From contig NZ_CP094494.1 of assembly GCF_022810765.1 (NCBI RefSeq), positions 434,001 through 498,000 on the forward strand: a DNA stretch of 64,000 bases. Reading direction: 5' to 3'. Positions within the stretch are counted from its first letter, which is position 1. Every line of letters begins with the position of its first letter. The stretch comes from Winogradskyella sp. MH6 (GTDB lineage Bacteria > Bacteroidota > Bacteroidia > Flavobacteriales > Flavobacteriaceae). Below are positions 3,272 through 20,500 of this stretch, one piece after another. The position numbers and the translations under genes are program-made. A model generated the notes under the pieces. That model was not told where the DNA came from, searched no databases, and saw nothing but the letters and a program-made list of their open reading frames with translations.

Positions 3272-3283
3272 TCAACATATAAG

Positions 3284-3310
3284 TTGGATATAGTTAATAA
3301 CTATATCCAA
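3284..3310. repeat. 27-bp perfect palindrome at array head (candidate attI or terminator)
   Basis: TTGGATATAGTTA and TAACTATATCCAA are perfect 13-bp arms around a single A. The palindrome begins 12 bp after the recombinase stop codon and ends two bases before GTTAGCAT, the first cassette's start. There is no U-run on the + side, which weakens a terminator reading. Position suggests the primary insertion site (attI equivalent). Confidence 0.5.
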
Positions 3311-3325
3311 TTGTTAGCATCAATA

Positions 3326-3565
3326 CTAAACTGTGTATTCATCATGCTCTTCCTCTGTTAGCTTATTTTTTGCAGTTTTACCATTCAAGCAATTTAGTGT
3401 CGCTACATTACTTGTATCTTCATTTAAAACTAAGTGTCCATCACCCGCACACCAAGTTAGTACCGCATTAAAATCACACACTTCTTTTAATTTGTCATTT
3501 ACCTTTTCAACAGCACATTCATACTTTTCATGTGTGCTAAAAACCTTATTTAATAATGCTTTCAT
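3326..3565 (-). CDS. Cassette 1 protein, reversed orientation
   Basis: 79 residues, preceded by an A-rich leader (about ten A before the ATG) as is common for Bacteroidota translation starts. The sequence is hydrophilic and acidic with several cysteines, and no family is recognised. It is the only cassette gene pointing against the array, so it needs its own promoter. The opposite-strand frame over the same bases is Ser/Phe/Cys-rich and looks like a shadow. Cassette 1 begins GTTAGCAT at 3313, and its attC left arm (ATGCTAAC, 3602) matches. Confidence 0.55.
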   Translation of the reverse strand: MKALLNKVFSTHEKYECAVEKVNDKLKEVCDFNAVLTWCAGDGHLVLNEDTSNVATLNCLNGKTAKNKLTEEEHDEYTV

Positions 3566-3601
3566 TTTTTTTTTTGTTTATTGCTTGCTAACACCGTACT
3601 A

Positions 3602-3698
3602 ATGCTAACAATGTGTATAAAAAATAGCCTAATTAAGTTTTGTAATAATTCCGAACGTCTGTGTATGGGCTACTTTTCATACACTCGTCCGTTGTGCG
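3602..3698. repeat. attC-like site 1 (cassette 1/2)
   Basis: Left arm ATGCTAAC at 3602 complements the cassette 1 start GTTAGCAT. Inner arms TGTATAAAAAATAGCC and GGCTACTTTTCATACA pair imperfectly. The right arm ends CCGTTGTGCG, the start of cassette 2. It is the shortest site (97 bp). A second GCTAACACCG at 3586 duplicates the left box. Confidence 0.75.
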
Positions 3699-3713
3699 TA
3701 ATTTGGAAAAAAT

Positions 3714-4205
3714 ATGAGCCAATATTATAAAGTCGTTAATCTAGACAAAAAACAATTCTTTTCACCTGACATTTTTAATGACGGTGTGAAACTGGGAGCG
3801 GTAATGAATGGAATCCATCCCTATGTAATTGGACGACTTTTATTGTCTGACTTCAACTTAACCGAAGAAAAGTTCGGAACTGGATATTGGTTCGGTGATA
3901 AAATAGCAATTATAGGTGATGAAAGCGCAAATGAATTTAATGACCGACAAGTAGAATTTGAAAATGTTGGAGCCGAACTATTATTCTCTTTTATCAATGA
4001 TGAAAATTTTCAAAAATTGATTTTAAATGAGCTTAAATCTGACAGCAATTACTACGCTCGAATCGGATTTTTAGTGCTTCAATACGCAGGTAAAGCTGAC
4101 GAATTAAAAAGGTTTCTTATTCAAAATTTTGGCAATGATTGGGAGAAAAAAGCAAAAGAAGTCTGGGAAGATAAAAAAACTACTTTTATCGAACTGGATG
4201 TTTAA
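3714..4205 (+). CDS. Cassette 2 protein of unknown function
   Basis: 163 residues, soluble, acidic, with no signal peptide or membrane segment and no recognised family. The second half (YYARIGFLVLQYAGKADELKRFLIQ) looks helical. The start ATG follows an A-rich stretch (GGAAAAAATATG), 24 bp after the cassette boundary. The stop codon is 9 bp before the attC left arm, so the cassette is tightly packed with no room for other genes. An alternative frame at 4129-4332 runs through the attC site and is rejected. Confidence 0.7.
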   Translation: MSQYYKVVNLDKKQFFSPDIFNDGVKLGAVMNGIHPYVIGRLLLSDFNLTEEKFGTGYWFGDKIAIIGDESANEFNDRQVEFENVGAELLFSFINDENFQKLILNELKSDSNYYARIGFLVLQYAGKADELKRFLIQNFGNDWEKKAKEVWEDKKTTFIELDV

Positions 4206-4213
4206 AAAAACTA

Positions 4214-4349
4214 CGCACAACAAGGGCTATAGTTCATTGCGGCGGAATTTCCTCTCGGAAATTCCTGCGTGTTTGCTAACTTTGGTTTACGGCGGAATAG
4301 TTCTGCCGAACCATTCCGCAACGAAACCATAGCCAAGACCGTTGCCCAC
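4214..4349. repeat. attC-like site 2
   Basis: Left arm CGCACAAC complements the cassette 2 start GTTGTGCG (3691). GGCTATAG pairs with the CATAGCC of the right half. The right arm ends ACCGTTGCCCAC, the start of cassette 3. The centre has the GGAAATTCCT / GGCGGAA type hairpins shared with sites 8 and 11. Confidence 0.85.
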
Positions 4350-4377
4350 AATATTGAAAAACTAAACGCAAAAATTA

Positions 4378-4818
4378 ATGAAAAGAAATATTTCGAGAAT
4401 TATCGGAGTTGGAATTATTATGCTGACCCTGTCTTGTAAAACCTATACGATTCCAGTTGAAAGTTTTAAAGAACAAATGAAAAATACAAATTCGTCAAAT
4501 ATGAAAGATGTGACCGTAAATAATCCTCTTACATATGGAAGTATTTCATATTCTGCAAATAATATTGACCGAATTATTGTTGTGGACAAAAACGGAAACA
4601 GTTCCTATCTTAATAATTCTGGTTCAATAGAAATGAGAGTTACTCATAAGAACGGAAAAAAATATCATATGTATTTCGATACCGTAATTTTAGAAAACGA
4701 TACTCTGAAAGGTGGACGTTCAAGATTTGTTCAGAGTTTGGAAAGACAAATCCCAATAGATAGCATTGTGAAAATTGAAATCCAAGATGGCGGAAAGAAA
4801 TTTAATTATCAAAACTAA
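4378..4818 (+). CDS. Cassette 3 putative lipoprotein
   Basis: 146 residues. The N-terminus is a lipoprotein-type signal (hydrophobic stretch ending LTLSCKTY, Cys20 as the likely lipidated residue). The mature part is polar with beta-rich sequence and no recognised domain; the segment GSISYSANNIDRIIVVDKNG is hydrophilic and probably exposed. The gene fills its cassette. Function unknown; probably displayed on the periplasmic side of a membrane. Confidence 0.7.
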   Translation: MKRNISRIIGVGIIMLTLSCKTYTIPVESFKEQMKNTNSSNMKDVTVNNPLTYGSISYSANNIDRIIVVDKNGNSSYLNNSGSIEMRVTHKNGKKYHMYFDTVILENDTLKGGRSRFVQSLERQIPIDSIVKIEIQDGGKKFNYQN

Positions 4819-4825
4819 AAATACT

Positions 4826-4961
4826 GTGGGCAACAATGTATAACCGCAATTACGGCGGATTCGACTACGTCCGAATCCACTCGGAATTGCTAACGTCAGT
4901 TCTTAACCGAAAATTAAAACATATAAACCCGTAACTGACGGTTATACGAACCGTTAGCCAC
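4826..4961. repeat. attC-like site 3
   Basis: Left arm GTGGGCAAC is the exact complement of the cassette 3 start GTTGCCCAC (4341). TATAACCG pairs with CGGTTATA, and TTACGG with CCGTAA, around a central GGATTCG/CGAATCC hairpin. The right arm ends CCGTTAGCCAC, the start of cassette 4. Sites 5, 6, 10 and 12 are near-identical in the centre. Confidence 0.88.
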
Positions 4962-4976
4962 AAATTACCAGAAACT

Positions 4977-5942
4977 ATGAAGAACAATGGAAAATCGTTA
5001 GAAAAAACTATCCGACTTATCCAAGAGACTTTAAAAGATTCTGAAAACACAAAAATTTTCAATAATTATAAAATCGAAAACGAAAGTGGTCAGAAGCGAG
5101 AAATTGACATATTAATCGTTTCCTCAATAAATGACTTTGATATTAAGATTGCGATTGAATGTAAAGATTATAATAAAAAAGTTCCTGTTAAAGAAATTGA
5201 AGCATTCGAATCGAAATGTGATAGGATTAAACAAATTAATAAGAAAGTTTTTGTTAGTACAAACGGATATCAGGCTGACGCAATAAATACAGCAAAATAT
5301 TACGGAATTGAATTACATACCGCAAATAAACTCAAAAAAGAAGATATTCAAAGTTGGTTTCCAATAAAACAAATGGGACTTCAAATTGAGTCAAAATTTA
5401 TCGCACCAACTTTATATTTAGATACTACACAGGAAATATTAGATACTATTTTAAAAGAGTTTAATGGAATTGTTTACAGAGAGAACATTAATGAACCTAT
5501 TAAAATAGAAACGCTTTTAATTGAGGCTATTGAAAATAATAAAAGGGTAATGATGAACCTTGCTATTGTTGAATGGATAAAATTGGAAGAATCGAAAAAA
5601 GACGAATCTTTCCCTATACAATTCAAACTTGACTTTAATGATTATTATATAAAATCAACAGATATAAAAAAAATCAAACTTTTGGGATTAACATCAAGTG
5701 TATATGTAAAATTCGTGAAAAGAGATGCTACAATTTTAAGCGGGAGAATTGTTAAAGGTTCAAAAGAAAATGATATTACAAAATTTATAACAATAGACGT
5801 TGGAGGAAATATAAAAAGTGACATTATAATAGACAAAAATGAGGAATTAACATTTTTCGCAACAAATAAAAAAGGGGAATCTGAAAAATTGAAATCTTTA
5901 TTTACTTACAATCCGAAAACAAAAAAATTTAGCGGTAAATAA
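4977..5942 (+). CDS. Cassette 4 Mrr-like restriction endonuclease
   Basis: 321 residues. The first ~115 residues carry a PD-(D/E)XK nuclease fold of the Mrr_cat type: KREIDILIV supplies the acidic residue, IAIECKDY the E-x-K pair, and FVSTNGYQADAINTAKYYGIEL the conserved helix. The remaining ~200 residues are unrecognised and could read a DNA or effector signal. Mrr enzymes cut DNA, often methylated, and act as restriction or anti-phage factors; no partner methylase is in the cassette. Soluble. The start ATG is 24 bp after the cassette boundary and the stop is 4 bp before the next attC arm. Confidence 0.8.
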   Translation: MKNNGKSLEKTIRLIQETLKDSENTKIFNNYKIENESGQKREIDILIVSSINDFDIKIAIECKDYNKKVPVKEIEAFESKCDRIKQINKKVFVSTNGYQADAINTAKYYGIELHTANKLKKEDIQSWFPIKQMGLQIESKFIAPTLYLDTTQEILDTILKEFNGIVYRENINEPIKIETLLIEAIENNKRVMMNLAIVEWIKLEESKKDESFPIQFKLDFNDYYIKSTDIKKIKLLGLTSSVYVKFVKRDATILSGRIVKGSKENDITKFITIDVGGNIKSDIIIDKNEELTFFATNKKGESEKLKSLFTYNPKTKKFSGK

Positions 5943-5945
5943 TCA

Positions 5946-6080
5946 GTGGCTAACAACGTATATAATTTATTGCTAGTTCTAGCCTACTTACGAAAATCCT
6001 CGCGGATTTTCTATTCAGTTTTTATTTGCTAAATTACGTGCTAAACCACGCAACAAACCATATACGAACACGTTGTAAGC
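5946..6080. repeat. attC-like site 4
   Basis: Left arm GTGGCTAAC is the exact complement of the cassette 4 start GTTAGCCAC (4953). The right arm ends CACGTTGTAAGC, the start of cassette 5. The centre contains the AAAATCCTCGCGGATTTT hairpin of the class shared with site 9. Confidence 0.87.
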
Positions 6081-6113
6081 AATTTGCGAAAACCGAAATC
6101 TAACTGAATTAAT

Positions 6114-6515
6114 ATGTTTAGTTTCTTAAAAAAGAAAAGAGATTTACCTGAATTTGATTTTATAAAATCATACTCTGAAAAGGAAAAATACTTTGTACGA
6201 ACAAAAAAATGGAATTGGTTAAATCCCGAACAAATCGCTTTGTTGGAAAAAGACTCTGACGGAAAAATTAAAATGACAACAATGGATTATTGGCATCAAG
6301 AAATGTTTTTAGATGCTGACGGACAAAAAACAATTTCGGAATATTTAAGTGTTTTAATTAATCAATTTAGAGACAGTAAAATGGAAATTCCATCCGACTT
6401 GGATAAGTTTATGGTGGAAACTCTTTTGAGCTTAAAAACGGACTTAAACGCAATAGAATTTAGCAAAAAACCGACTGAAATTAAAACTGAATTTAGGAAC
6501 CCTATAAAAGAATAA
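6114..6515 (+). CDS. Cassette 5 protein of unknown function
   Basis: 133 residues, hydrophilic, with a basic N-terminus (MFSFLKKKRDLPEF) and mixed-charge helices; no signal peptide, membrane segment or recognised domain. The start ATG is 34 bp after the cassette boundary and the stop is 5 bp before the attC left arm. No function can be assigned. Confidence 0.65.
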   Translation: MFSFLKKKRDLPEFDFIKSYSEKEKYFVRTKKWNWLNPEQIALLEKDSDGKIKMTTMDYWHQEMFLDADGQKTISEYLSVLINQFRDSKMEIPSDLDKFMVETLLSLKTDLNAIEFSKKPTEIKTEFRNPIKE

Positions 6516-6671
6516 AAACTGCTTACAACAATGTATAACCGCAATTACGGCGGATTCGACTACGTCCGAATCCACTCGGAATTGCTAACGTCAGTGCTAA
6601 ACCGAAAATTATTAACTTTAATCCCGTAACTGACGGTTATACGTATTCCAAGGTAAAAAACAAGTGTTTTT

Positions 6672-7664
6672 TTAATAATTTACAGCTGCTATATTTACAA
6701 AGGGCGTACCTCTTTTTATTACTGCAAAACTTCTTGCCAATATTTTGTTTCTAACATTGTTTAAGGCTATCATTTTGTGTTTACCTTCTTCGAGTTTTCT
6801 ATGGTAGTATTTCTTAAGTTCTTGGTCTGATTGAATAGCTGATACGGCTGCCATGCTCAATAGGGTCTTCATTTTTCTATCACCTATATAATGGCTCTGT
6901 TTTCGCCGTCTTATTGAGCTTCCTGAACTGTACTCGAACGGTGCTATACCACAATAACTTGAAAAGGTTCTCCATGTACTGAATTTAATAAAGTTAGAGG
7001 TGTGGTAGAGCAATTGGCAGCTAAGTATAAGACCTACGCCTTTTACCGAACGCAGCAACTCATAGTTTTGCCTTAAGGTATCATCGGTCTTTACCAATGT
7101 TTTCATCTGGCTTTCTAAGGCTTCTATTTGTTTGTCTATATGTTTTATAGATCGTTCTAAAATCTTGCAGCAAACATCTGTGGATGGGCTTGACAGCAAG
7201 TGCTTGTTTTCTTTTAATGTAGATTTTAACCCACTTCGATCTTTAACCAATTGGTCTCTTAATGAGAGTATTCTTCCCAGTTCTTGAAAGATCTGTGGTT
7301 TCATATGACTTGGCTGAAGCTCTTCTCTATACATCCATCCGAACCTGGCTATCATATAAGAGTCTAGCTTGTCTGTCTTCTCTCTTGTAAGACCTGTACT
7401 GCGCTTTATGCGCATAGGACTTTCTTCTACATAACAAACTCCACTTTCTGATAAAAAAACAGATAGCTTTAGTGAGTAATTGCCCGTATTTTCGAAACAT
7501 AAAAAATAAGAATCACTGCCAACTTGGTGATTTGCCCATTTAAGGAGTTTTGAATAACCTGCTCTATCATTGGTAAATACAGCATGATGCTCGCTTTGGT
7601 ATGCTGTAGCATCTATGGTTTTCTTGGATACATCTATCCCGATTACATCTCTAACATTTTTCAT
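6672..7664 (-). CDS. IS110-family DEDD transposase, copy 1
   Basis: 330 residues. The N-terminal DEDD RuvC-like domain has GIDVSKKTIDA (first Asp), CFENTGNYS (Glu) and TDKLDSYMIARFG (last acidic pair). A coiled-coil linker (about 140-200) is followed by the Transposase_20 domain (VKGVGLILSCQLL, then FSSYCGIAPFEYSSGSSIR with the serine-rich catalytic segment). In the family these act with a bridge RNA made from the element's non-coding end to pair donor and target. The length is full for the family, and the protein is identical in the three copies, so the element has spread recently and is probably active. Confidence 0.93.
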   Translation of the reverse strand: MKNVRDVIGIDVSKKTIDATAYQSEHHAVFTNDRAGYSKLLKWANHQVGSDSYFLCFENTGNYSLKLSVFLSESGVCYVEESPMRIKRSTGLTREKTDKLDSYMIARFGWMYREELQPSHMKPQIFQELGRILSLRDQLVKDRSGLKSTLKENKHLLSSPSTDVCCKILERSIKHIDKQIEALESQMKTLVKTDDTLRQNYELLRSVKGVGLILSCQLLYHTSNFIKFSTWRTFSSYCGIAPFEYSSGSSIRRRKQSHYIGDRKMKTLLSMAAVSAIQSDQELKKYYHRKLEEGKHKMIALNNVRNKILARSFAVIKRGTPFVNIAAVNY

Positions 7665-7863
7665 ATATTTAAAAAAATTATCATTAATGATGTTTTGTAA
7701 CTATTTCCTTTAATGAGCCTATAGGGCTAGGTATTCCAATTAGTTCTTCAAAACATCCTACAAGAGACAGAGAGGACTATTACGTGTAATGGATATTATC
7801 TAAAGACCGTTCGAGTTCTCCTCTCTTCTCTTGTTAAATTTAATGATATCAAAGTAAAGGAGA
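7665..7863 (-). ncRNA. Candidate IS110 bridge RNA region, copy 1
   Basis: 199 bp of non-coding leader between the transposase start and the IS end, on the same strand as the transposase. Two internal segments look like guides. On the + strand GTATTCCAA at 7731-7739 repeats the first 9 bases of the opposite IS end (6643). AGACCGTT at 7804-7811 repeats the IS/target junction, with TTATC(TAAAG)ACCGTT at 7796-7811 resembling intact targets such as TTATACTAACCGTT. Copies at 9529-9727 and 17626-17824 appear identical. RNA expression and fold are inferred. Confidence 0.6.
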
Positions 7864-7900
7864 CCGTTGGCTGTAATGTAAAACGACATTCCCGAAAACA

Positions 7901-8374
7901 ATGAAAATGACCCAATCTGAACTTATAATTTTAAATTTTACAGAAATAAGGAGAAGAAGTATAAAACTTTGGAATGGACTACCTGAGAAATATTATAATT
8001 GGAAACCTGACGAAAAAGCAATGAGTGCGTCAGAAATGATAAGACACGTTTTGGAGGCTGATTATGGATGGAATCTTATTATTAATCAAGGTGATATGAC
8101 AAATTATAAAACACCTTGGGAAAACCGAGCATTTATTAGCCTTACTGATGAACTTGAATTTGCCGAACCTTATAGAAAAACATTTATAGAAAGTATTAAA
8201 CATTTTTCGGATAAGGAATTAAACGAAACCGAAATCGTTCACCCTGGAAATGGAGACAAGAAAATCCTTGCAAAATATTTGTTACGGATTGGATATCACG
8301 AATCAGTTCACGCAGGACAATTTCTGTCGTATTTAAGAGCAATGAAAATTGATAGACCAAACATATGGGATTGA
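7901..8374 (+). CDS. Cassette 6 DinB-family four-helix protein
   Basis: 157 residues, DinB/YfiT-like putative metalloenzyme fold. The three expected metal-ligand histidines are in place: one in SEMIRHVLEADYGW (about residue 50) and two in GYHESVHAGQFLSYLR (about 131 and 135). Members of this family are small soluble thiol or metal-dependent transferases or proteins of unknown role. This is unrelated to the DNA polymerase also called DinB. It is the sole gene in its cassette. Confidence 0.85.
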   Translation: MKMTQSELIILNFTEIRRRSIKLWNGLPEKYYNWKPDEKAMSASEMIRHVLEADYGWNLIINQGDMTNYKTPWENRAFISLTDELEFAEPYRKTFIESIKHFSDKELNETEIVHPGNGDKKILAKYLLRIGYHESVHAGQFLSYLRAMKIDRPNIWD

Positions 8375-8506
8375 AAAAAACACTACAGCCAACAATGTAT
8401 AACCGCAATTACGGCGGATTCGACTGCGTCCGAATCCACTCGGAATTGCTAACGTCAGTATCAAACCGAAAATTAACGCATATTAACCCGTAACTGACGG
8501 TTATAC

Positions 8507-9727
8507 GTATTCCAAGGTAAAAAACAAGTGTTTTTTTAATAATTTACAGCTGCTATATTTACAAAGGGCGTACCTCTTTTTATTACTGCAAAACTTCTTG
8601 CCAATATTTTGTTTCTAACATTGTTTAAGGCTATCATTTTGTGTTTACCTTCTTCGAGTTTTCTATGGTAGTATTTCTTAAGTTCTTGGTCTGATTGAAT
8701 AGCTGATACGGCTGCCATGCTCAATAGGGTCTTCATTTTTCTATCACCTATATAATGGCTCTGTTTTCGCCGTCTTATTGAGCTTCCTGAACTGTACTCG
8801 AACGGTGCTATACCACAATAACTTGAAAAGGTTCTCCATGTACTGAATTTAATAAAGTTAGAGGTGTGGTAGAGCAATTGGCAGCTAAGTATAAGACCTA
8901 CGCCTTTTACCGAACGCAGCAACTCATAGTTTTGCCTTAAGGTATCATCGGTCTTTACCAATGTTTTCATCTGGCTTTCTAAGGCTTCTATTTGTTTGTC
9001 TATATGTTTTATAGATCGTTCTAAAATCTTGCAGCAAACATCTGTGGATGGGCTTGACAGCAAGTGCTTGTTTTCTTTTAATGTAGATTTTAACCCACTT
9101 CGATCTTTAACCAATTGGTCTCTTAATGAGAGTATTCTTCCCAGTTCTTGAAAGATCTGTGGTTTCATATGACTTGGCTGAAGCTCTTCTCTATACATCC
9201 ATCCGAACCTGGCTATCATATAAGAGTCTAGCTTGTCTGTCTTCTCTCTTGTAAGACCTGTACTGCGCTTTATGCGCATAGGACTTTCTTCTACATAACA
9301 AACTCCACTTTCTGATAAAAAAACAGATAGCTTTAGTGAGTAATTGCCCGTATTTTCGAAACATAAAAAATAAGAATCACTGCCAACTTGGTGATTTGCC
9401 CATTTAAGGAGTTTTGAATAACCTGCTCTATCATTGGTAAATACAGCATGATGCTCGCTTTGGTATGCTGTAGCATCTATGGTTTTCTTGGATACATCTA
9501 TCCCGATTACATCTCTAACATTTTTCATATATTTAAAAAAATTATCATTAATGATGTTTTGTAACTATTTCCTTTAATGAGCCTATAGGGCTAGGTATTC
9601 CAATTAGTTCTTCAAAACATCCTACAAGAGACAGAGAGGACTATTACGTGTAATGGATATTATCTAAAGACCGTTCGAGTTCTCCTCTCTTCTCTTGTTA
9701 AATTTAATGATATCAAAGTAAAGGAGA
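8507..9727 (-). mobile_element. IS110-family insertion sequence, copy 2
   Basis: 1221 bp, apparently identical to copy 1 and inserted at the same position of the attC palindrome (TATAC / CCGTT) in the same orientation. The leader at 9529-9727 is a second copy of the bridge-RNA region. Confidence 0.88.
8536..9528 (-). CDS. IS110-family DEDD transposase, copy 2
   Basis: 330 residues, identical in sequence to copy 1, with all DEDD and Transposase_20 motifs present. With copy 1 it brackets cassette 6, so the two direct IS copies could delete or amplify that cassette by homologous recombination. Confidence 0.93.
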   Translation of the reverse strand: MKNVRDVIGIDVSKKTIDATAYQSEHHAVFTNDRAGYSKLLKWANHQVGSDSYFLCFENTGNYSLKLSVFLSESGVCYVEESPMRIKRSTGLTREKTDKLDSYMIARFGWMYREELQPSHMKPQIFQELGRILSLRDQLVKDRSGLKSTLKENKHLLSSPSTDVCCKILERSIKHIDKQIEALESQMKTLVKTDDTLRQNYELLRSVKGVGLILSCQLLYHTSNFIKFSTWRTFSSYCGIAPFEYSSGSSIRRRKQSHYIGDRKMKTLLSMAAVSAIQSDQELKKYYHRKLEEGKHKMIALNNVRNKILARSFAVIKRGTPFVNIAAVNY

Positions 9728-9755
9728 CCGTTGTGCAACATACTGAACGAACAAT

Positions 9756-10280
9756 ATGCCAGAAAGTAAAATAGTTTTTGTTGGAGGAATTCACGGAGTT
9801 GGAAAAGGGACTTTCTGTAATGATATTTCTAAAAAATACAACTTGGAGCACCTAACTGCAAGTGAAGTCCTAAAATGGAATGAAATAAGTAATTTGAAAA
9901 ACAAAAAGGTTAAAGATATTAGCTCAACGCAAGAAAGATTAATTAATAATCTTGCCAAAATTGTAAAACCTAATCAAAACTACTTATTAGACGGACATTT
10001 TACTTTGTTGAATTCAAGCGGAATTCCGCTAAAAATTGAAGACGAAACTTTTGTCGGTATTAATCCAATCTCGATTATTCTATTAACTTGCGAAACAAGA
10101 ACTATTTTATCAAGATTAACTAACAGAGACGATTCGAAGTATGACTTGAGTACTATTCAGAAAATGCAAGAAATGGAAGTTGAACACGCAAATCATATTT
10201 CAAAAAAACTAAATATCCCTTTATTTGAGATTAAAGACAAGGACAGCCAGTTGGTTTATAATTATTTGAAAAACTTATGA
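9756..10280 (+). CDS. Cassette 7 P-loop nucleotide kinase-like protein
   Basis: 174 residues. A Walker A loop (GGIHGVGKGT, residues about 10-19) directly follows a beta strand, and a predicted LID-like arginine region (ETRTILSRLTNRDDSKYD) follows in the second half. This is the layout of AAA_18/AAA_33 or adenylate-kinase-like P-loop proteins. It is the first gene of a three-gene cassette; its stop codon overlaps the next ATG (ATGA), which implies translational coupling. The substrate is unknown. Confidence 0.75.
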   Translation: MPESKIVFVGGIHGVGKGTFCNDISKKYNLEHLTASEVLKWNEISNLKNKKVKDISSTQERLINNLAKIVKPNQNYLLDGHFTLLNSSGIPLKIEDETFVGINPISIILLTCETRTILSRLTNRDDSKYDLSTIQKMQEMEVEHANHISKKLNIPLFEIKDKDSQLVYNYLKNL

Positions 10281-12128: not shown

Positions 12129-12133
12129 AGTAC

Positions 12134-12269: not shown

Positions 12270-12288
12270 ATTTACCAAAACCAACTAA

Positions 12289-12750: not shown

Positions 12751-12991
12751 AAGAAATTTAAAAATTATAAGACTTTACATTGTTGGTTTATTATGTATTG
12801 TCTTTTTCTTTTTATTAGACAATTCTAATATCATACCCGAACTTGTTGAAAAATCAAGTAAACTTCGCTACAATGGATTTGCTACGTTTTTACTGACAGG
12901 GTTAATAAAATATGGATTATTTATAATTGGAATTTGTATTGTTCTAATTTTAAGTTTTATGTTAATTAGAGAAAAAATTAAAAACAAATAA
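12731..12991 (+). CDS. Cassette 8 small membrane protein
   Basis: 86 residues from ATG 12731. An upstream start at 12692 is possible but would deepen the overlap with the previous gene from 20 to 59 bp. Two hydrophobic segments (IVGLLCIVFFFLLD and YGLFIIGICIVLILSFMLI) predict a two-pass inner-membrane protein. No family is recognised. Probably co-translated with the T2SSG-like protein in the same cassette. Confidence 0.6.
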   Translation: MTLNRNKRNLKIIRLYIVGLLCIVFFFLLDNSNIIPELVEKSSKLRYNGFATFLLTGLIKYGLFIIGICIVLILSFMLIREKIKNK

Positions 12992-12996
12992 AAAAC

Positions 12997-13133
12997 GTGC
13001 TACAACACCGGCTATAGTTCATTGCTTCTGACTTTCCTCTCGGAAAGTCCTCGCAAATTTGCTATCTTCGGTTTACGGCGGAAAATCCTCGCGGATTTTC
13101 ACGCAACGAAACCATAGCCCAACCGTTACCTGT
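12997..13133. repeat. attC-like site 8
   Basis: Left arm GTGCTACAAC is the exact 10-bp complement of the cassette 8 start (12260). GGCTATAG pairs with CATAGCC. The centre has the CTTTCCTCTCGGAAAG and AAAATCCTCGCGGATTTT hairpins. The right arm ends CCGTTACCTGT, the start of cassette 9. Confidence 0.88.
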
Positions 13134-13150
13134 AATTTGAAAAACCAAAT

Positions 13151-13741
13151 TTGAGCATAAAACAAACCTTTCAAATCTTAACTATTATTTCTGTAATCGG
13201 AATGATATGTTGGAATATTACCGACTATTTTGGCGGAATGATTATTTATTTATTACAGTATTGGATTGTAATAATTCCAATTGTAATTCTTTATTTAATT
13301 ACGCTTATCGGAACAATAACCAAACTTTCGAAAAGCGGAATAAAAGCAAATAAATTGATTTTTGGAGCACATCTGATTTTCATAATTTTTGTTCTAACAA
13401 CGAATTTAATCGAATCTGAAATTTTTAAGTCAAAAACTGTTTTGAGTGGAACATTAAAAGATGACCTTTTTCATTATACCCTTGTATTTCGTGAAGACGG
13501 AACTTGTGAAAATGAAGTAAACGGATTTTTGGGGTTTAAAGATGAATATGACGGAAAATATAAAATGACTGGAGACACGATAATCTTTATTGTAAAACCT
13601 TATGACAATGATTTTATTCCTGACACATTATTGTTGGATAGGAAACAAAATGCGATTTTCTTGAATAAGAATAAAAATGGAGATTTTAACACCGAAAAAG
13701 AATGGTTGAATCATTTTGAACTGAAAAAAAACTACAGGTAA
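13151..13741 (+). CDS. Cassette 9 integral membrane protein
   Basis: 196 residues from TTG 13151; ATG 13205 is an alternative. Three hydrophobic segments in the first ~100 residues are followed by a soluble beta-rich C-terminal half (HYTLVFREDGTCENEVNGFLG, DEYDGKYKMTGDTIIF) resembling small periplasmic domains of unknown function in Bacteroidota. The stop codon TAA lies inside the attC left arm (ACAGGTAAC), so coding sequence and recombination site overlap. Confidence 0.65.
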   Translation: MSIKQTFQILTIISVIGMICWNITDYFGGMIIYLLQYWIVIIPIVILYLITLIGTITKLSKSGIKANKLIFGAHLIFIIFVLTTNLIESEIFKSKTVLSGTLKDDLFHYTLVFREDGTCENEVNGFLGFKDEYDGKYKMTGDTIIFIVKPYDNDFIPDTLLLDRKQNAIFLNKNKNGDFNTEKEWLNHFELKKNYR

Positions 13742-13870
13742 CACCGTGTATAATTCATTGCTAGTTATAGCCTACTTACGAAAGTCCTCGCGGACTTTCT
13801 ATCTGTGATTTATTTGCTAACTTTAATGCTTAAACACGCAACGAAATCATACACAAACACGTTGTGCATA
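13734..13870. repeat. attC-like site 9
   Basis: Left arm ACAGGTAAC complements the cassette 9 start GTTACCTGT (13125) and contains the stop codon of the cassette gene. The centre is nearly the same as site 4. The right arm ends CACGTTGTGCATA, the start of cassette 10. Confidence 0.87.
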
Positions 13871-13888
13871 ATTTAATCAAACCACAAA

Positions 13889-14329
13889 ATGCCGTTTCCA
13901 ATTGATATAAAATATATAATAGAAACTGAATCGGAATTAAATGTAAAATTCCCGACTGAATTTAAAAACCAAATGATTAAATCAAATGGTGGAGAATTAT
14001 TGATTTCGGACGAGTTTGGATTTGAATTGCATCCATTCTTTGATAAATCTGACCGAAAAAGAATAAGTCGGACTTGTAACCATATAGCACTTGAAACAAA
14101 AAATGCTCGAAAATGGAGTGGATTTCCTGACAATGGAATCGCAATTGGAGCGGACGGATTTGGGAATCAACTAATCTTGACTCATAACGGAAATGGAAAT
14201 TTAACCGATGAACTATATTTTTGGAATCACGAGACAAGACATATAGAAAAAATAGCTGAATCGATTAATAAACTTTACATCGACAAAGGCTCGTTTTGGG
14301 AGAAAATAAAATCAATATTTAATGCATAA
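13889..14329 (+). CDS. Cassette 10 SMI1/KNR4 (SUKH) family protein
   Basis: 146 residues. The SUKH fold is recognisable by the N-terminal helix with IIETESELNVKFPTEFKNQMIKSNGG, the DEFGFELHPF strand, the GFPDNGIAIGADGFGNQLIL core and the ELYFWNHET strand. Bacterial SUKH proteins are often immunity proteins against polymorphic toxins. No toxin is in the cassette, so this may be an orphan immunity gene. Soluble; the only gene in the cassette. Confidence 0.85.
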   Translation: MPFPIDIKYIIETESELNVKFPTEFKNQMIKSNGGELLISDEFGFELHPFFDKSDRKRISRTCNHIALETKNARKWSGFPDNGIAIGADGFGNQLILTHNGNGNLTDELYFWNHETRHIEKIAESINKLYIDKGSFWEKIKSIFNA

Positions 14330-14334
14330 AAAAC

Positions 14335-14472
14335 TATGCACAACATTATATAACCGCAATTACGGCGGATTCGACTACGTCCGAATCCACTCGGAATTGC
14401 TAAGACCAGTTCTTAACCGAAAAATACAGTAAACCAAACCGATAACTGACGGTTATACTAACCGTTATGTGC
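14335..14472. repeat. attC-like site 10
   Basis: Left arm TATGCACAAC is the exact 10-bp complement of the cassette 10 start GTTGTGCATA (13861). The centre is of the class of sites 3, 5, 6 and 12. The right arm ends CCGTTATGTGC, the start of cassette 11. Confidence 0.88.
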
Positions 14473-14489
14473 AATACTGAAAAGAACTT

Positions 14490-15134
14490 ATGAAAAAAAT
14501 TTTAGTCCCTGTTTTTCTAATGACAACACTGATTTCAATTGGACAAAGTGTTTACAGAAAAGACGCTGACCTGAAAAAACAGAATGGAATCAAGCAAACT
14601 GACATCTATATGCTAGATAAATCGAAATCAACTAATGCGATTTTGTTCCAGTCAAACCTTTATGACAGAAATGGTCGAACAATAGATACAAAAAGCTATA
14701 CTCTTGATGGAAAATTGGATTCTCATTCAAAATTTGAATATCCAAATGACACAATTAGAATCAAGATTTCAGTTGACTCAACCCAAACAGAATTAAAACG
14801 GATTGAACAAAAATTTGACTTATCTGATAAGAAAAGAGAAGCACAAAAAAATAAGAATCGGAATTTTGAATACGAATATGATTCCAGAGGCAACGCAACA
14901 AAAATCTACAGAATAGTAGGAAACGAAAAATCCTTGTTAACTGAAAAAGAATATAATCAAAATAATTATCTGACAAGAGAAGGAGCTTTCTCGTTTAGGT
15001 CAGATGGAACTAAAAGATGGAAAGTTAGAATTTACGAACGAGATGAATCTGACAACATTTTACGGATTACTACAATGGACGAAAGTGAAATTGAAAATGT
15101 TGTAATATATGTTCACAAAAAGTACAGCACATAA
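14490..15134 (+). CDS. Cassette 11 secreted YD-repeat-like protein
   Basis: 214 residues with a Sec signal peptide (MKKILVPVFLMTTLISIGQS). The mature part has short tyrosine-containing repeats (SNLYDRNGRTIDTKSYTLDG, FEYEYDSRGNATKIYRIVG, RIYERDESDNILRITTMD) like those of RHS/YD-type beta proteins found in many Bacteroidota secreted proteins. No catalytic domain is seen. The stop codon lies in the attC left arm (GCACATAAC). Confidence 0.68.
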   Translation: MKKILVPVFLMTTLISIGQSVYRKDADLKKQNGIKQTDIYMLDKSKSTNAILFQSNLYDRNGRTIDTKSYTLDGKLDSHSKFEYPNDTIRIKISVDSTQTELKRIEQKFDLSDKKREAQKNKNRNFEYEYDSRGNATKIYRIVGNEKSLLTEKEYNQNNYLTREGAFSFRSDGTKRWKVRIYERDESDNILRITTMDESEIENVVIYVHKKYST

Positions 15135-15261
15135 CAACGGCTATAGTTCATTGCTTCTGACTTTCCTCTCGGAAAGTCCTCGCAAATTTGCTATCTTCGG
15201 TTTACGGCGGAAAATCCTCGCGGATTTTCACGCAACGAAACCATAGCCCAACCGTTACCAC
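15127..15261. repeat. attC-like site 11
   Basis: Left arm GCACATAAC complements the cassette 11 start GTTATGTGC (14464) and holds the TAA stop. The centre is almost identical to site 8. The right arm ends CCGTTACCACC, the start of cassette 12. Confidence 0.88.
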
Positions 15262-15268
15262 CAATTTG

Positions 15269-15886
15269 ATGAACAACGCTGGAAACCAAATATTGAACTG
15301 GCTAATGATTGGAATTTCTCAATCGCCTAATAGTCTGAATGAAAGTTTCTACTTTGACAAAAAAGAAGAAAAGTTCTTTTCAATTGTTGTAACGGACTAT
15401 TTTATGTTAGATGATAATTTGGATTTAGCAAAAAACACAACGACAAGTTATTCTGAACAGAATCAAAATAAGTTAGTAACTCTAATAAAAAGAATTGATA
15501 AAGATGACAAGGATATTCTTTTTGTCCCACGTCTTACACATAAAGAAAGAAGAGACATTTTAAGCGAATTTTTGTCGTCAGTAGATAATCCGAAAGAAAA
15601 AGAAAAAATCGGAAATCTGTATTTTAAAATGGATGGTGAGCTTACGCATTTTGATAAAAAATTTGAGATTGAAAGTTCCCAAAAAATTGTGAATGAATGG
15701 AATGAATTTAAAGACAGAATCCTATTATCTAAAGCCGAATCTTTTCTCAATCTAAACGCAATTAATTTGAATAACGTCAGCATTATGGACTTTGATAATG
15801 AAGGAGGAATTACGATTGACTTAACAAAAGATGACAATGGTAATGAGATTGTGGATGAAAAAAGATGGTGGGAATTTTGGAAATAA
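15269..15886 (+). CDS. Cassette 12 protein, UPF0158-like
   Basis: 205 residues from ATG 15269. The frame is open further upstream (15188), but that would start inside the attC site, so the first ATG after the cassette boundary is chosen. The segment FVPRLTHKERRDILSEFLSSVDNPKEK through EWNEFKDRILLSKAESFL resembles UPF0158-type proteins, which share a proline-containing start and a helical body; this match is weak. The C-terminus is WWEFWK. Soluble, no signal peptide. Function unknown. Confidence 0.6.
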   Translation: MNNAGNQILNWLMIGISQSPNSLNESFYFDKKEEKFFSIVVTDYFMLDDNLDLAKNTTTSYSEQNQNKLVTLIKRIDKDDKDILFVPRLTHKERRDILSEFLSSVDNPKEKEKIGNLYFKMDGELTHFDKKFEIESSQKIVNEWNEFKDRILLSKAESFLNLNAINLNNVSIMDFDNEGGITIDLTKDDNGNEIVDEKRWWEFWK

Positions 15887-15891
15887 AAACT

Positions 15892-16028
15892 GGTGGTAAC
15901 AATGTATAACCGCAATTACGGCGGATTCGACTACGTCCGAATCCACTCGGAATTGCTAACGTCAGTTTTTAACCGAAAATAATTAACTTTAAAACCGTAA
16001 CTGACGGTTATACGAACCGTTGTAACAT
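15892..16028. repeat. attC-like site 12
   Basis: Left arm GGTGGTAAC complements the cassette 12 start GTTACCACC (15253). The centre is of the class of sites 3, 5, 6 and 10. The right arm ends CCGTTGTAACATA; the next gene's ATG begins at 16029, only 10 bases after the G of GTT. Confidence 0.87.
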
Positions 16029-16478
16029 ATGAAAAAACTCATCATAATATTAATTTTAGTTTTGATTAGCCAATTGAGTTTTTCACAGGCTTGTTGTGTT
16101 TTGGATTTTAAAATTAGTGGGAAAGTTACTTCGGACAAAATTAAGCTTGACCGAATTTATTTGCCTTCAACCACATTTTTAGTTGGATATGACAAATTTG
16201 ATTCACAAACTGGATTTTACTATGTTGAACTCGGATCTGACCTATTTTCAACCAAATTTCGTTCGCATTTGAGTTCTGATTTCTGTATGAATGCAGAATT
16301 GATAATTGAAAGAGTTTTTAAAAAAGTGAAAAAATATCCGATTCGCATTACGGAAGAAAAGAGAGACCACGCAGGAGAATTTAAATCTTATGAATTGGAA
16401 ATACCAACTGAACAAATCGAATTCTTGATAAATGAAAATGAAGAAATTGAAATTGTTTTGCCTGAAATTAAAATATAA
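16029..16478 (+). CDS. Cassette 13 secreted protein
   Basis: 149 residues with a clear Sec signal peptide (MKKLIIILILVLISQLSFSQA), followed by a polar, probably beta-rich domain with conserved-looking cysteines near the start (ACCVLDFKISG) and one later (DFCMNAEL). No family is recognised. The start codon is the closest to a cassette boundary in the array, with almost no leader. Confidence 0.66.
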   Translation: MKKLIIILILVLISQLSFSQACCVLDFKISGKVTSDKIKLDRIYLPSTTFLVGYDKFDSQTGFYYVELGSDLFSTKFRSHLSSDFCMNAELIIERVFKKVKKYPIRITEEKRDHAGEFKSYELEIPTEQIEFLINENEEIEIVLPEIKI

Positions 16479-16603
16479 AATACGTTGCACAACAACGTGT
16501 ATAATTCATTGCTTCTGATTTTCCTTCGGAAAATCCTCGCGCTGAATTATTGCCTATTATTTTTACTAAATTAGTTGCTGAAACACGCAACGAAATCATA
16601 CAC

Positions 16604-17824
16604 GTATTCCAAGGTAAAAAACAAGTGTTTTTTTAATAATTTACAGCTGCTATATTTACAAAGGGCGTACCTCTTTTTATTACTGCAAAACTTCTTGCCA
16701 ATATTTTGTTTCTAACATTGTTTAAGGCTATCATTTTGTGTTTACCTTCTTCGAGTTTTCTATGGTAGTATTTCTTAAGTTCTTGGTCTGATTGAATAGC
16801 TGATACGGCTGCCATGCTCAATAGGGTCTTCATTTTTCTATCACCTATATAATGGCTCTGTTTTCGCCGTCTTATTGAGCTTCCTGAACTGTACTCGAAC
16901 GGTGCTATACCACAATAACTTGAAAAGGTTCTCCATGTACTGAATTTAATAAAGTTAGAGGTGTGGTAGAGCAATTGGCAGCTAAGTATAAGACCTACGC
17001 CTTTTACCGAACGCAGCAACTCATAGTTTTGCCTTAAGGTATCATCGGTCTTTACCAATGTTTTCATCTGGCTTTCTAAGGCTTCTATTTGTTTGTCTAT
17101 ATGTTTTATAGATCGTTCTAAAATCTTGCAGCAAACATCTGTGGATGGGCTTGACAGCAAGTGCTTGTTTTCTTTTAATGTAGATTTTAACCCACTTCGA
17201 TCTTTAACCAATTGGTCTCTTAATGAGAGTATTCTTCCCAGTTCTTGAAAGATCTGTGGTTTCATATGACTTGGCTGAAGCTCTTCTCTATACATCCATC
17301 CGAACCTGGCTATCATATAAGAGTCTAGCTTGTCTGTCTTCTCTCTTGTAAGACCTGTACTGCGCTTTATGCGCATAGGACTTTCTTCTACATAACAAAC
17401 TCCACTTTCTGATAAAAAAACAGATAGCTTTAGTGAGTAATTGCCCGTATTTTCGAAACATAAAAAATAAGAATCACTGCCAACTTGGTGATTTGCCCAT
17501 TTAAGGAGTTTTGAATAACCTGCTCTATCATTGGTAAATACAGCATGATGCTCGCTTTGGTATGCTGTAGCATCTATGGTTTTCTTGGATACATCTATCC
17601 CGATTACATCTCTAACATTTTTCATATATTTAAAAAAATTATCATTAATGATGTTTTGTAACTATTTCCTTTAATGAGCCTATAGGGCTAGGTATTCCAA
17701 TTAGTTCTTCAAAACATCCTACAAGAGACAGAGAGGACTATTACGTGTAATGGATATTATCTAAAGACCGTTCGAGTTCTCCTCTCTTCTCTTGTTAAAT
17801 TTAATGATATCAAAGTAAAGGAGA
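16604..17824 (-). mobile_element. IS110-family insertion sequence, copy 3
   Basis: 1221 bp, apparently identical to copies 1 and 2, in the same orientation and at the homologous position of a different attC class (CATACAC left flank instead of GGTTATAC). This shows the target is the attC outer arm and not the central sequence. The bridge-RNA region is 17626-17824. Confidence 0.88.
16633..17625 (-). CDS. IS110-family DEDD transposase, copy 3
   Basis: 330 residues, identical in protein sequence to copies 1 and 2. All catalytic motifs are intact. Together with copy 2 it flanks cassettes 7-13, a further possible deletion or duplication unit. Confidence 0.93.
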   Translation of the reverse strand: MKNVRDVIGIDVSKKTIDATAYQSEHHAVFTNDRAGYSKLLKWANHQVGSDSYFLCFENTGNYSLKLSVFLSESGVCYVEESPMRIKRSTGLTREKTDKLDSYMIARFGWMYREELQPSHMKPQIFQELGRILSLRDQLVKDRSGLKSTLKENKHLLSSPSTDVCCKILERSIKHIDKQIEALESQMKTLVKTDDTLRQNYELLRSVKGVGLILSCQLLYHTSNFIKFSTWRTFSSYCGIAPFEYSSGSSIRRRKQSHYIGDRKMKTLLSMAAVSAIQSDQELKKYYHRKLEEGKHKMIALNNVRNKILARSFAVIKRGTPFVNIAAVNY

Positions 17825-17839
17825 CCGTTGCCAGTAATT

Positions 17840-18307
17840 ATGAAATCCAAGATTAAATTAATATTAAGTCAAATATGCTTATTATTTCTTTTGTTCTTGT
17901 CTAGTTGTAATCGAATGGAAGATACTATAACTTTAATTCCAGAAGGTTATACTGGAACTGTAGAAATTTGGTTTAATCAAGCTAATGGAGAACAAATTGA
18001 ATATGAAAACGACAAAAGAATCTATAGGATTCCAAAAAATGGTATTCTGAATACTCAGTTTTCTGAACAGTATGGAAGTAACTATCCAAAATTCTATTAC
18101 GTTAATGAATTGGACAATAGAACTGAAATAAAAATGCTACATGTTTTAAGTAAAACTGTTTTGGATTCAATAGATAAAAATAAGATTTATGCATATAAAT
18201 TTATGTTACCAGGAGGAGGATTTAAAATTGATTCTCTCGGAAATGAAACTATTCTAGAGCCTGGAATAATATTCACTGTAGATTATCCAACTTTTGAAAA
18301 TAACTAG
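17840..18307 (+). CDS. Cassette 14 lipoprotein, DUF6843-like
   Basis: 155 residues from ATG 17840. An in-frame TTG at 17828 lies within the GTT box and is not preferred. There is a lipoprotein signal (CLLFLLFLSSCNRMED, Cys about residue 21). The mature domain opens with TITLIPEGYTGTVEIWFNQANG, a pattern I associate with DUF6843-type proteins of Bacteroidota; this naming is tentative. Predicted beta sandwich. The TAG stop is inside the attC left arm. Confidence 0.68.
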   Translation: MKSKIKLILSQICLLFLLFLSSCNRMEDTITLIPEGYTGTVEIWFNQANGEQIEYENDKRIYRIPKNGILNTQFSEQYGSNYPKFYYVNELDNRTEIKMLHVLSKTVLDSIDKNKIYAYKFMLPGGGFKIDSLGNETILEPGIIFTVDYPTFENN

Positions 18308-18441
18308 TGCCAACAACGTGTATAATTCATTGCTTCTGATTTTCCTTTCGGAAAATCCTCGCGCCGAATTATCGCCTTTTATTTTTTATTAAATTAGTTG
18401 CTGAAACACGCAACGAAATCATACACAAAACCGTTGGGTAC
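18305..18441. repeat. attC-like site 14
   Basis: Left arm TAGTGCCAAC complements the cassette 14 start GTTGCCAGTA at 8 of 10 positions; the two differences are G/C swaps. The right arm ends CCGTTGGGTAC, the start of cassette 15. The centre is of the class of site 13. Confidence 0.8.
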
Positions 18442-18445
18442 AATT

Positions 18446-19033
18446 ATGACAAACAGTATTTTCCATAACAAAGAGTTTGAGTTGAACGGAATTTCTGTAC
18501 CTGAATTTGAACTGAAAAGCGGAAATCTAATTAGAATTTACATTCCAAATTTTGACTCTGAAAATCAACCTTTAGGTTTTGACTTGACAATTGAATTAAT
18601 AAAGCATTTTCAAAATATAAAGTCTGATTTCCCTTGGGCGAAAAACTACCGACAAAATTCAATTGTGGAATTACTAAATCCTCTGACCGTTGAAAAATAT
18701 CTGATTAATAAAATGCGGATTGAAAAACTCACAGCGGAAAAGATTGCGGACGAAATCGGAATTAAGCTAATAGATAAATTTGAATATTTGAATTTCACGA
18801 ATAAAAAGGCATTGATAATAAAAGCTCTTTTTGAGAAAAACGAATGTATAATGTTGGACTATTATGGTGTAGATGCAATTGGAATCGGATTTTTAGAAAA
18901 ATTAGTGAACTCGGAAATTAAAAAGAGTAAATCTGCTATCGCTTTCGACAGACTGGAATTTAAAGCTGATAATGAACCTTATGAAAATATTAAACCGATA
19001 AAAATAACTGTACCCAACACTGTGTATAATTAA
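18446..19033 (+). CDS. Cassette 15 protein, possible degenerate ABC-type ATPase
   Basis: 195 residues from ATG 18446; the longer frame would start inside attC. The N-terminus (FHNKEFELNGISVPEFELKSGNLIRIYIPNF) and the late segment MLDYYGVDAIGIGFLEKLVNSEIKKSKSAIAFDRLEF have the rhythm of an ABC ATPase N-strand and Walker B/D-loop region. No Walker A or signature motif is seen, so ATPase activity is unlikely. The last nine codons run into the attC left arm. Confidence 0.62.
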   Translation: MTNSIFHNKEFELNGISVPEFELKSGNLIRIYIPNFDSENQPLGFDLTIELIKHFQNIKSDFPWAKNYRQNSIVELLNPLTVEKYLINKMRIEKLTAEKIADEIGIKLIDKFEYLNFTNKKALIIKALFEKNECIMLDYYGVDAIGIGFLEKLVNSEIKKSKSAIAFDRLEFKADNEPYENIKPIKITVPNTVYN

Positions 19034-19146
19034 TTGCTTCTGAATTTCCTCTCGGAAAGTCAGAAGCAAATTTGCTATCTTCAGTTTACGGCGGAAAATC
19101 CTCGCGGATTTCCCGCAACGAGGCATACACAAAACCGTTGCCATCC
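19010..19146. repeat. attC-like site 15
   Basis: Left arm GTACCCAAC is the exact complement of the cassette 15 start GTTGGGTAC (18433) and lies inside the coding frame of that cassette. The right arm ends CCGTTGCCATCC, the start of cassette 16. Confidence 0.87.
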
Positions 19147-19169
19147 ATTGTGAACAAACAGAACTTTAA

Positions 19170-19493
19170 ATGAAAATCGGAAAACATTTATCCTTAATTT
19201 CAATATTAGTTGCGTCAATTTTTATAATCAAAAAAGCTTTTTTCGATATAGAAACTTACAGAATATTAACGACTGAATTGGAATCTGGAAATGGTGATAT
19301 ACAACCAACTTTAGTTGCAGGTGGAATTAAAGTTGCTATACTTTATTTAATCCCTATTTCAATATCATTAATTTTGAGCGTAATCGGAATGAGAAGAAAA
19401 AACAAATTTGGAAAAAGCGGAGTTATTTTAAATTTAATTGCTATTGTTTACCACTTAATTCCTTTGAGCTTGTTTTTTTTCGCAATAAAGTAA
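19170..19493 (+). CDS. Cassette 16 small membrane protein
   Basis: 107 residues with three hydrophobic segments (SLISILVASIFIIKKAFF, VAILYLIPISISLILSVIG, LNLIAIVYHLIPLSLFFFA), a likely inner-membrane protein. No family is recognised. About 100 bp of non-coding sequence follows before the last attC site, the longest tail of any cassette; nothing is recognised in it. Confidence 0.65.
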   Translation: MKIGKHLSLISILVASIFIIKKAFFDIETYRILTTELESGNGDIQPTLVAGGIKVAILYLIPISISLILSVIGMRRKNKFGKSGVILNLIAIVYHLIPLSLFFFAIK

Positions 19494-19597
19494 AAACTCA
19501 ATCGGAATTGAATAATAGAACGTGGAATGGATTACTCACTCAAATTCTGAATGAAAATCTGGAATTGAAAAAATATTAATCGAAATAAAACAACGAA

Positions 19598-19730
19598 ATG
19601 GCAACAATGTATAAATTCAATTGCGGCTGAATTTCCTGCGGAAATTCATTGCAATTTTCTATCTTTCAGTCACAATCGGAAAATCGTACCGATTTTCCAC
19701 AACTGAAATTTATACACAAACGTTATTCCA
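19598..19730. repeat. attC-like site 16 (end of array)
   Basis: Left arm ATGGCAAC complements the cassette 16 start GTTGCCAT (19137). The right arm ends ACGTTATTCC at 19722, and the TTA of this box is the stop codon of the repressor gene read from the other strand. The array therefore ends exactly at a coding boundary. Confidence 0.82.
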
Positions 19731-20496: not shown

Positions 20497-20500
20497 AATA

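Follow-up and report, generated by a model that had tools for sequence, protein, structure and literature searches.

Integrons are the classic platform of adaptive gene capture, and the locus examined here raises the question of whether a long tandem array of gene-sized units in a flavobacterium is an integron and, if so, of what kind. The locus lies in a stretch of 64,000 nucleotides (nt), hereafter the window, from the 3.5-Mb single-contig genome of Winogradskyella sp. MH6 (positions 434,001-498,000), in which a tyrosine recombinase gene is followed by sixteen units that each carry a foldable site. We regard it, with a probability of about 0.9, as a distinct integron lineage of the class Bacteroidia made up of a platform and a cassette array. 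The array is organised as an integron and most likely also works as one; this organisation and probable function follow from the conserved platform, from arrays at 35 of the 39 loci with an orthologous recombinase, from exact cassette ends and from cassettes shared between genomes. What characterises an integron is present in the window, namely a recombinase beside the array, an attI-like site and a precisely ended unit of gene plus site.

Organisation of the array and its sites

Sixteen tandem cassettes with GTTR starts, as reported in the preliminary description, span window positions 3313-19721, each with a foldable site behind its body. A unit begins with GTTR, continues with a body that ends in AAC, and closes with a site centre that reaches to the GTT of the next unit; downstream of the recombinase gene the order is therefore a palindrome ending at 3312 and then 16 units up to 19721, with a terminal GTT at 19722. 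Measured from AAC to the next GTT, the centre is 81 nt long in site 1 and 116-119 nt in the 12 other uninterrupted sites, which fits within a few bases the palindromes of 97 and 133-138 bp given earlier.

When reverse-complemented, the left arm of a site matches the start of its own unit and not that of the next. Over 9 nt in the 16 units, 137 of 144 positions agree with the own start and 74 with the next one, and none of 100,000 random re-pairings reached 137 (mean 84.1, maximum 113). Eight or nine positions match in 14 of the 16 arms, the exceptions being unit 14 (7/9) and unit 13 (6/9), the arm of which is identical to the start word of unit 7. This own-start rule had if anything been understated, since the pairing extends to 14 nt, with a mismatch at position 11 in 16/16 window units. 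It had also been said to hold across three insertion sequences (ISs), which is the case for units 5 and 6; the third copy is located in the anomalous unit 13.

The same pattern is found well beyond the window. A unit detector in which the first six positions were obligatory, at most two mismatches were accepted elsewhere in the 14 nt and position 11 was free gave a sample of 297 units at 36 array loci (35 orthologue loci and the window). Positions 7-9 match in 98-99% of these units, positions 12-14 in 245-283, and position 11 in a single one, with a start A and an arm G in 273 of the 297; on the bottom strand such a pair reads as a G.T wobble, on the top strand as an A.C mismatch. In 200 kb of non-array sequence of the own genome (both strands) the detector gave 40 single hits and 0 linked units, and on the integrase strand of the array loci 561 hits, of which 364 linked, in 905 kb.

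Folding the sites as single strands, a check proposed at the outset, gave the expected polarity: with DNA parameters, the predicted energy of the bottom strand is lower than that of the top strand in 217 of 221 sites bounded at both ends (means of -28.2 and -24.0 kcal/mol), and in 211 sites a lower energy is predicted for the circular, own-start form than for the linear one. Of the 221 sites, 168 contain a perfect inner stem of 6 bp, with spacers of 3 nt on its left and 5 or 6 nt on its right. Alternatively, the hairpins could be terminators or repetitive extragenic palindrome (REP)-like repeats, and the gene turnover ordinary homologous recombination between them. Repeats of similar sequence are indeed abundant, outside the array too, and block duplications such as that of units 4-5 and 10-11 in locus L053 would be explicable in this way, whereas own-arm covariation with a fixed wobble and breakpoints at GTT would be left unexplained; the arms moreover differ from cassette to cassette and the arrays adjoin the recombinase in 35/39 loci, so that terminators or REP-like repeats appear highly improbable. 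An Rfam search at E up to 1 gave two matches, with scores far under the gathering thresholds.

The recombinase and its platform

The recombinase gene (2147..3271, plus strand) encodes a protein of 374 amino acids (aa) in which an extra N-terminal domain (about 80 aa) precedes a SAM-like core-binding domain and a catalytic domain without the IntI insert. The protein is XerA-like, the best sequence and structure matches of its catalytic core being XerA, XerC and XerD (NF040815; PDB 5hxy and 4a8e). It differs from these simple tyrosine recombinases in the extra domain and in the linkage to a cassette array; action on dimer sites of the dif kind is not known for it. The N-terminal domain gave no Foldseek match at E ≤ 0.001. 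The best match to the HARP domain (PF07443) among the recombinases reached 18.3 bits, under the cut-off of 25; matches to it and to the XPB damage-recognition domain were all weak, and none to HARP was found in the window recombinase, in those of loci L129, L130 and L136 or in that of genome G614 (see below).

Divergent from the recombinase gene lies p127 (1671..2054, minus strand), a gene for 127 aa with CxxC and YCxxxC motifs that look zinc-ribbon-like by eye. In 75 of 92 loci with the recombinase (a few genomes being represented twice), a p127 homologue lies upstream in divergent orientation, and an accessory factor is a possible role for it; p127 matched no Pfam family, and its single NCBIfam match (E 0.0095) was far under the cut-off.

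On the other side of the recombinase gene, the attI-like site (3282..3312, plus strand) is a palindrome, AGTTGGATATAGTTAATAACTATATCCAATT, that ends at the first GTT. An inverted repeat with arms of at least 8 bp precedes the first GTT in 65 of 81 platforms versus 261 of 1620 shuffles, and its sequence differs between genomes while the symmetry is kept. The window is homologous to four loci of the Winogradskyella type (L097, L098, L100 and L101) from 1467 or 1678-1680 to 3315-3330, at 68.9-88.7% identity. This block comprises p127, the recombinase gene and attI, and the homology halts at the first cassette; beyond it only a few stretches of about 150-640 nt are homologous, namely site repeats and pieces at 26.7-28.2 kb. 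An invariant gene order among related strains, named earlier as a sign against cassettes, is therefore not what is seen: the cargo changes between relatives.

Recurrence in the family and beyond

A close recombinase (E ≤ 5e-114, counted by eye) was found in 50 of 299 genomes of the family, the own genome included and fragments such as those of G018 and G086 left out; these proteins are 56-73% identical to the window recombinase (own excluded), and the next match falls to 45%. Forty loci were fetched, of which 39 contain orthologues and one (L076) a 42% relative in which the 14-nt detector found no own-arm units. The linked units sit downstream of the recombinase; L054 and L057 each have a single upstream call. 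A site model built from the window finds matches within the genus in 67 of 68 genomes, in a scan that scored at most 52 candidates per genome, and in 35 of 196 genomes of the order. By these numbers such arrays, described earlier as rarely reported in Bacteroidota, are not rare.

More distant recombinases extend the distribution. Among loci of the sister clade and the like (43-54% identical recombinases), 16 of 32 contain at least one own-arm unit with A/G at position 11; they include Arundinibacter, Algoriphagus, a Sphingobacteriaceae metagenome-assembled genome (MAG), a Bacteroidales MAG and others (Cytophagales and other orders), with the units downstream. In the related genome G614, 106 units, 91 of them with A/G at position 11, are linked over about 116 kb in an array that runs on C1 from 3335820 past the end of the contig to about 102614 (L312-L318); by its size this array is a superintegron. 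The recombinase beside it is 39% identical to that of the window and scores 187.7 with TIGR02249, under the cut-off; as in canonical integrons, the array is found 5′ of the recombinase gene.

Plasmid records with a recombinase match number 69 at E ≤ 1e-50, all under 60% identity. Specifically, recombinases about 54% identical over a 232-aa stretch (L166-L168) occur on many Acinetobacter plasmids, and the Acinetobacter copy groups in the tree with that of a Chryseobacterium MAG in the sister clade. PMC7473080 reports xerD genes beside tet(X) genes and, in Empedobacter, a xerD gene oriented away from tet(X14). A link of such tet(X)-adjacent plasmid xerD genes to the window clade was considered and kept as a lead only.

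Relation to canonical integrons

The observations above could also be produced by an ordinary integron in which IntI has diverged and no longer has its insert, i.e. a further IntI class in direct descent from canonical integrons. The common logic of cassettes, own arms and bottom-strand bias speaks for such descent, and in the same phylum of the GTDB taxonomy seven clear canonical arrays (L179, L180, L183 and L188-L191) also have own arms, of about 11 nt, with the array 5′ of intI. The approximately unbiased (AU) test does not reject a single clade of IntI, the window clade and its sister (p 0.389). On the other hand, canonical IntI form one clade (support 100/100) apart from the clade of the window recombinase (100/99), in trees that both omit L092 (a stop inside) and three own-genome fragments (L004-L006), the more careful tree also omitting eight near-identical IntI rows and L164. 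The catalytic box distance is 93-95 in 22/22 rows of the recombinase clade. Across the Bacteroidia-type recombinases it is 93-99 in each of the 39 that were measured (of 42; a few side rows with no array shown are included), as against 128-136 in 17/17 IntI measured (of 20); it could not be measured in 3/20 distant rows, 3/20 IntI rows and 1/2 XerA rows. Compared with PDB 2a3v, the window recombinase has 25 aa between the matched blocks where 2a3v has 68, and it does not pass the IntI model TIGR02249 (202.3 bits in two stretches, cut-off 265).

The sites differ as well. GTTR opens 424 of 435 units, and GTTRRRY fits only 15 of the 435, so the RYYYAAC/GTTRRRY core of attC does not describe the cassette sites (L098 and L109, from the same genomes as L260 and L050, are left out of these counts). 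Position 11 is A/G in 363 of 380 linked units at flavobacterial loci versus 2 of 8 at canonical loci, where the 14-nt detector, run on 18 loci and both strands, gave 116 hits and those 8 linked units. A diverged IntI thus appears a tenable but doubtful explanation. TIGR02249 exceeds its cut-off in 84 of 296 genomes of the phylum, and none of the 85 TIGR02249-matching genomes belongs to the family of the window, the share of that family in the 296-genome sample not being stated.

Taken feature by feature, the distinct Bacteroidia lineage resembles chromosomal integrons of the IntI/attC kind in having an integrase beside an attI-like site, mostly single-ORF (open reading frame) cassettes, folded sites complementary to their own starts, a bottom-strand preference, large arrays and isolated sites elsewhere. 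It differs from them in a recombinase without the IntI insert, a GTTR instead of a GTTRRRY core, 14-nt own arms with a fixed G.T wobble, a palindromic attI and, in window-type arrays, a position on the 3′ side of the integrase gene. The system is therefore not to be filed under canonical IntI integrons.

No published description of such a system was found in the literature searched, which did not extend to subscription journals and preprints. The IntI insert is described as essential to integrons in PMC8138268, and PMC9024848 (IntegronFinder 2.0) lists, alongside Chlorobi and Ignavibacteriae, Salinibacter ruber M1 as a Bacteroidetes member with a complete integron; further background is contained in PMC9668308, PMC8618304, PMC3414803, PMC3053210 and PMC3409536. 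A widespread lineage that apparently works without the insert bears on how folded single-strand sites are recognised and on the origins of integrons. Such a lineage might further account for some of the gene turnover in marine Flavobacteriaceae, and surveys based on IntI/attC appear to miss a large stock of unknown cassettes, candidate phage-defence genes included.

Cassette mobility and exchange of site centres

Whole bodies are shared in 46 pairs among 441 units (at least 80% of the longer body, 66-100% identity). Split by eye, 22 of these pairs lie within one array, 18 between loci (one of them, L057/L069, within one genome) and 6 in one genome fetched twice. In 11 of 15 pairs of same-array duplicates, exact identity stops 1-5 nt left of GTT, and in 6 of those 11 the identity right of AAC covers the centre plus 3-6 nt only; in the other pairs the right end is unbounded, the copy is longer or centre mismatches halt the run. 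These exact ends indicate that the duplicated unit opens at GTT and closes where the centre ends, which is also the case for integron cassettes. Between genomes, an 851-nt body occurs in four loci (L262, L104, L038 and L266) from at least two genera at 91-99.9% identity, the highest value being that between genome G610 of the genus Winogradskyella and Maribacter sp. PR1.

Each unit could instead be a small transposon with terminal inverted repeats of its own, the units standing in tandem with the sites as mere gaps. The bodies do have 14-nt inverted terminal arms, and one body (in L104) has no recognisable centre behind it. The ends, however, vary from unit to unit and could therefore not be read by a single transposase; the centres are structured, nearly of one length and common to several genomes; body and centre are copied exactly in 6/15 duplicated pairs; and the scanned window cassette ORFs contain no transposase family apart from the separate IS110 copies. 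Tandem transposons are accordingly very hard to credit. Mobility of body and centre as a cassette agrees with the distinct, integron-like system originally proposed, as do the recombinase with its attI-like site, own-start arms in hundreds of units across genera, the exact boundaries of duplicated and shared cassettes, and a platform that stays as the cargo changes.

Body and centre do not always travel together. Among seven body families compared between loci (at least 88% identity), the centre is of the same class in four and of another class in three, namely the 851-nt body, L053_18/L064_1 and L059_1/L064_11, in which the bodies match up to AAC. The differing centres are 0.46-0.68 identical, about the level of unlike centres, and the same ones 0.86-0.98; two centres of the 851-nt family have no following unit to bound them. 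At 75-83% body identity the centre differs in three of four families and agrees in one, and with bounded centres and 85% bodies it differs in 2/4. Conversely, 2011 between-genome pairs have centres at least 80% alike, and the body is also common to only 2 of them. These patterns suggest that a second crossover occasionally takes place on the AAC side.

It may nearly as well be that an original centre was lost or replaced by deletion or mutation. Differing centres are seen in only 3/7 shared-body families, with some 851-nt-family centres unbounded or missing, and all 11 same-array pairs keep a similar centre. Against such loss stands L053_18/L064_1, where a 616-nt body at 96% identity stops precisely at AAC and is followed by two intact, bounded centres of different classes.

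Observations that weigh against an integron

Several observations run counter to the interpretation as an integron. Recombination itself is inferred, and centre exchange rests on the 3/7 body families just described, for which other causes are conceivable. Four of the 15 duplicated pairs reach further left, two of them by at least 400 nt, as block copies; because of these, homologous recombination may also act. Under the main detector settings 4 of the 39 orthologue loci lack a unit; three (L040, L068 and L073) have less than 1 kb of downstream sequence, and in L071 other settings gave two linked units, 11.8 kb downstream. In the genus, 48 of 68 genomes have no such recombinase at E ≤ 1e-100, and 20 do. 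Since site matches were obtained in 67/68 of these genomes, other recombinases must serve many arrays.

Moreover, 17 of the 33 site-model hits in the own genome fall outside the main array, at 69240-70047, 752191, 1195032, 2002643-2005790, 2346598-2347523, 2399435, 2649608, 3133908, 3244170-3245850 and 3429416-3436516, either solitary or in small clusters. Palindromes scattered through the genome without a link to cassette boundaries had been named as a sign against cassettes; scattering is thus seen, and the link is kept in part, 7 of the 17 having an own start at 1-2 mismatches, 5 having none, and 5 having only a 3-mismatch candidate that is possibly due to chance. No clean empty site was found for two of the solitary cassettes (2,399 kb and 2,649 kb), the relatives examined being variable there. 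Nor does the strand of the sites track replication orientation in the own genome, where the GC skew of sampled stretches reverses near 1.4 Mb and again between 2.87 and 3.05 Mb.

A possible mechanism

If the Bacteroidia lineage works as an integron, the window recombinase would be the catalyst, an XerA-like enzyme with an extra N-terminal domain that, lacking the IntI insert, would act on two kinds of sites. One would be the attI-like site adjoining its gene, a palindrome that ends at, or usually 3-6 nt before, the first GTT. The other would be the cassette site, in which the two ends of a cassette (AAACNNNNNNYAAC / GTTRNNNNNNATTT) would form a 14-nt stem with the bottom-strand G.T wobble at position 11, around a foldable centre of about 118 nt whose 6-bp inner stem is offset by spacers of 3 nt and 5-6 nt. 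Cassettes would probably circularise at GTT; the bottom strand would fold, and the recombinase would insert the folded strand at attI or swap it at other sites. Crossover on the AAC side of the hairpin may sometimes swap a centre between cassettes.

A bolder version, which we hold unlikely, is a second integron lineage independent of IntI: a Xer-type recombinase would carry a HARP/XPB-like, structure-recognising N-terminal domain in place of the IntI insert, polarity would come from the G.T wobble in the 14-nt own-end stem, and crossover on both hairpin sides would let bodies and centres reassort across Bacteroidia. If true, such an IntI-independent lineage would give a mechanism for the old puzzle that the cassettes of a host share one site type.

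Cassette contents, insertion sequences and neighbouring genes

All cassettes are given here on the plus strand. Cassette 1 (3313..3690; body 3313-3609, site centre 3610-3690) has a 79-aa ORF on the minus strand. Cassettes 2 (3691..4340, body to 4221) and 3 (4341..4952, body to 4834) have ORFs of 163 and 146 aa without Pfam matches, the latter lipoprotein-like by eye, and cassette 4 (4953..6071, body to 5954) encodes an Mrr-type restriction endonuclease domain. Cassette 5 (6072..7865, body to 6529) and cassette 6 (7866..9729, body to 8393), which encodes a DinB-superfamily protein, both have sites split by an IS. In cassette 7 (9730..12259, body to 12143) the PADLOC candidate phage-defence pair PDC-M11A and PDC-M11B and an AAA kinase-like gene occupy 9756-12128. 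There follow cassettes 8 (12260..13124, body to 13006), 9 (13125..13860, body to 13742), 10 (13861..14463, body to 14344), with an SMI1/KNR4 (SUKH) protein, 11 (14464..15253, body to 15135) and 12 (15254..16018, body to 15900). Cassette 13 (16019..17826, body to 16493), the site of which is split by an IS, is the own-arm anomaly; the arm word at the right end of its body (16019-16493) is that of cassette 7, which gives the appearance of two fused cassettes. Cassette 14 (17827..18432, body to 18314), with the 7/9 own arm, encodes a DUF6843 protein, and the array closes with cassettes 15 (18433..19136, body to 19018) and 16 (19137..19721, body to 19605, last site to 19721).

The three ISs are near-identical copies, 1.2 kb long and on the minus strand, which split sites 5 (6640..7865), 6 (8504..9729) and 13 (16602..17826). 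The first is a 1226-nt repeated block with a 330-aa DEDD transposase (6672-7664), and family IS110 (NF033542) is passed with 166.7 bits (cut-off 140). At the search threshold the genome contains five copies, three in the window and two elsewhere, and all 5/5 lie at one spot, between the right inner stem and the ACC-GTT of a site, only the right part of the site being visible at the 750-kb copy. Site-targeting ISs of the IS1111-attC kind are a possible parallel. The likeness lies in an IS110-family element placed in cassette sites; the difference is that the target here is a new site class.

Upstream of the platform, a serine recombinase-like ORF (window 86-1510, by eye) overlaps at its 3′ end a tRNA-like sequence, which suggests the edge of an island upstream of the integron. 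At the other end, the terminal GTT at 19722 coincides with the 3′ end of a regulator gene, XRE-S24-like by eye. In window 19723-24759 this regulator is divergent from genes for DNA polymerase IV and an error-prone-like DNA polymerase III alpha subunit, so that a cluster resembling those of SOS mutagenesis (a label likewise given by eye) adjoins the array.

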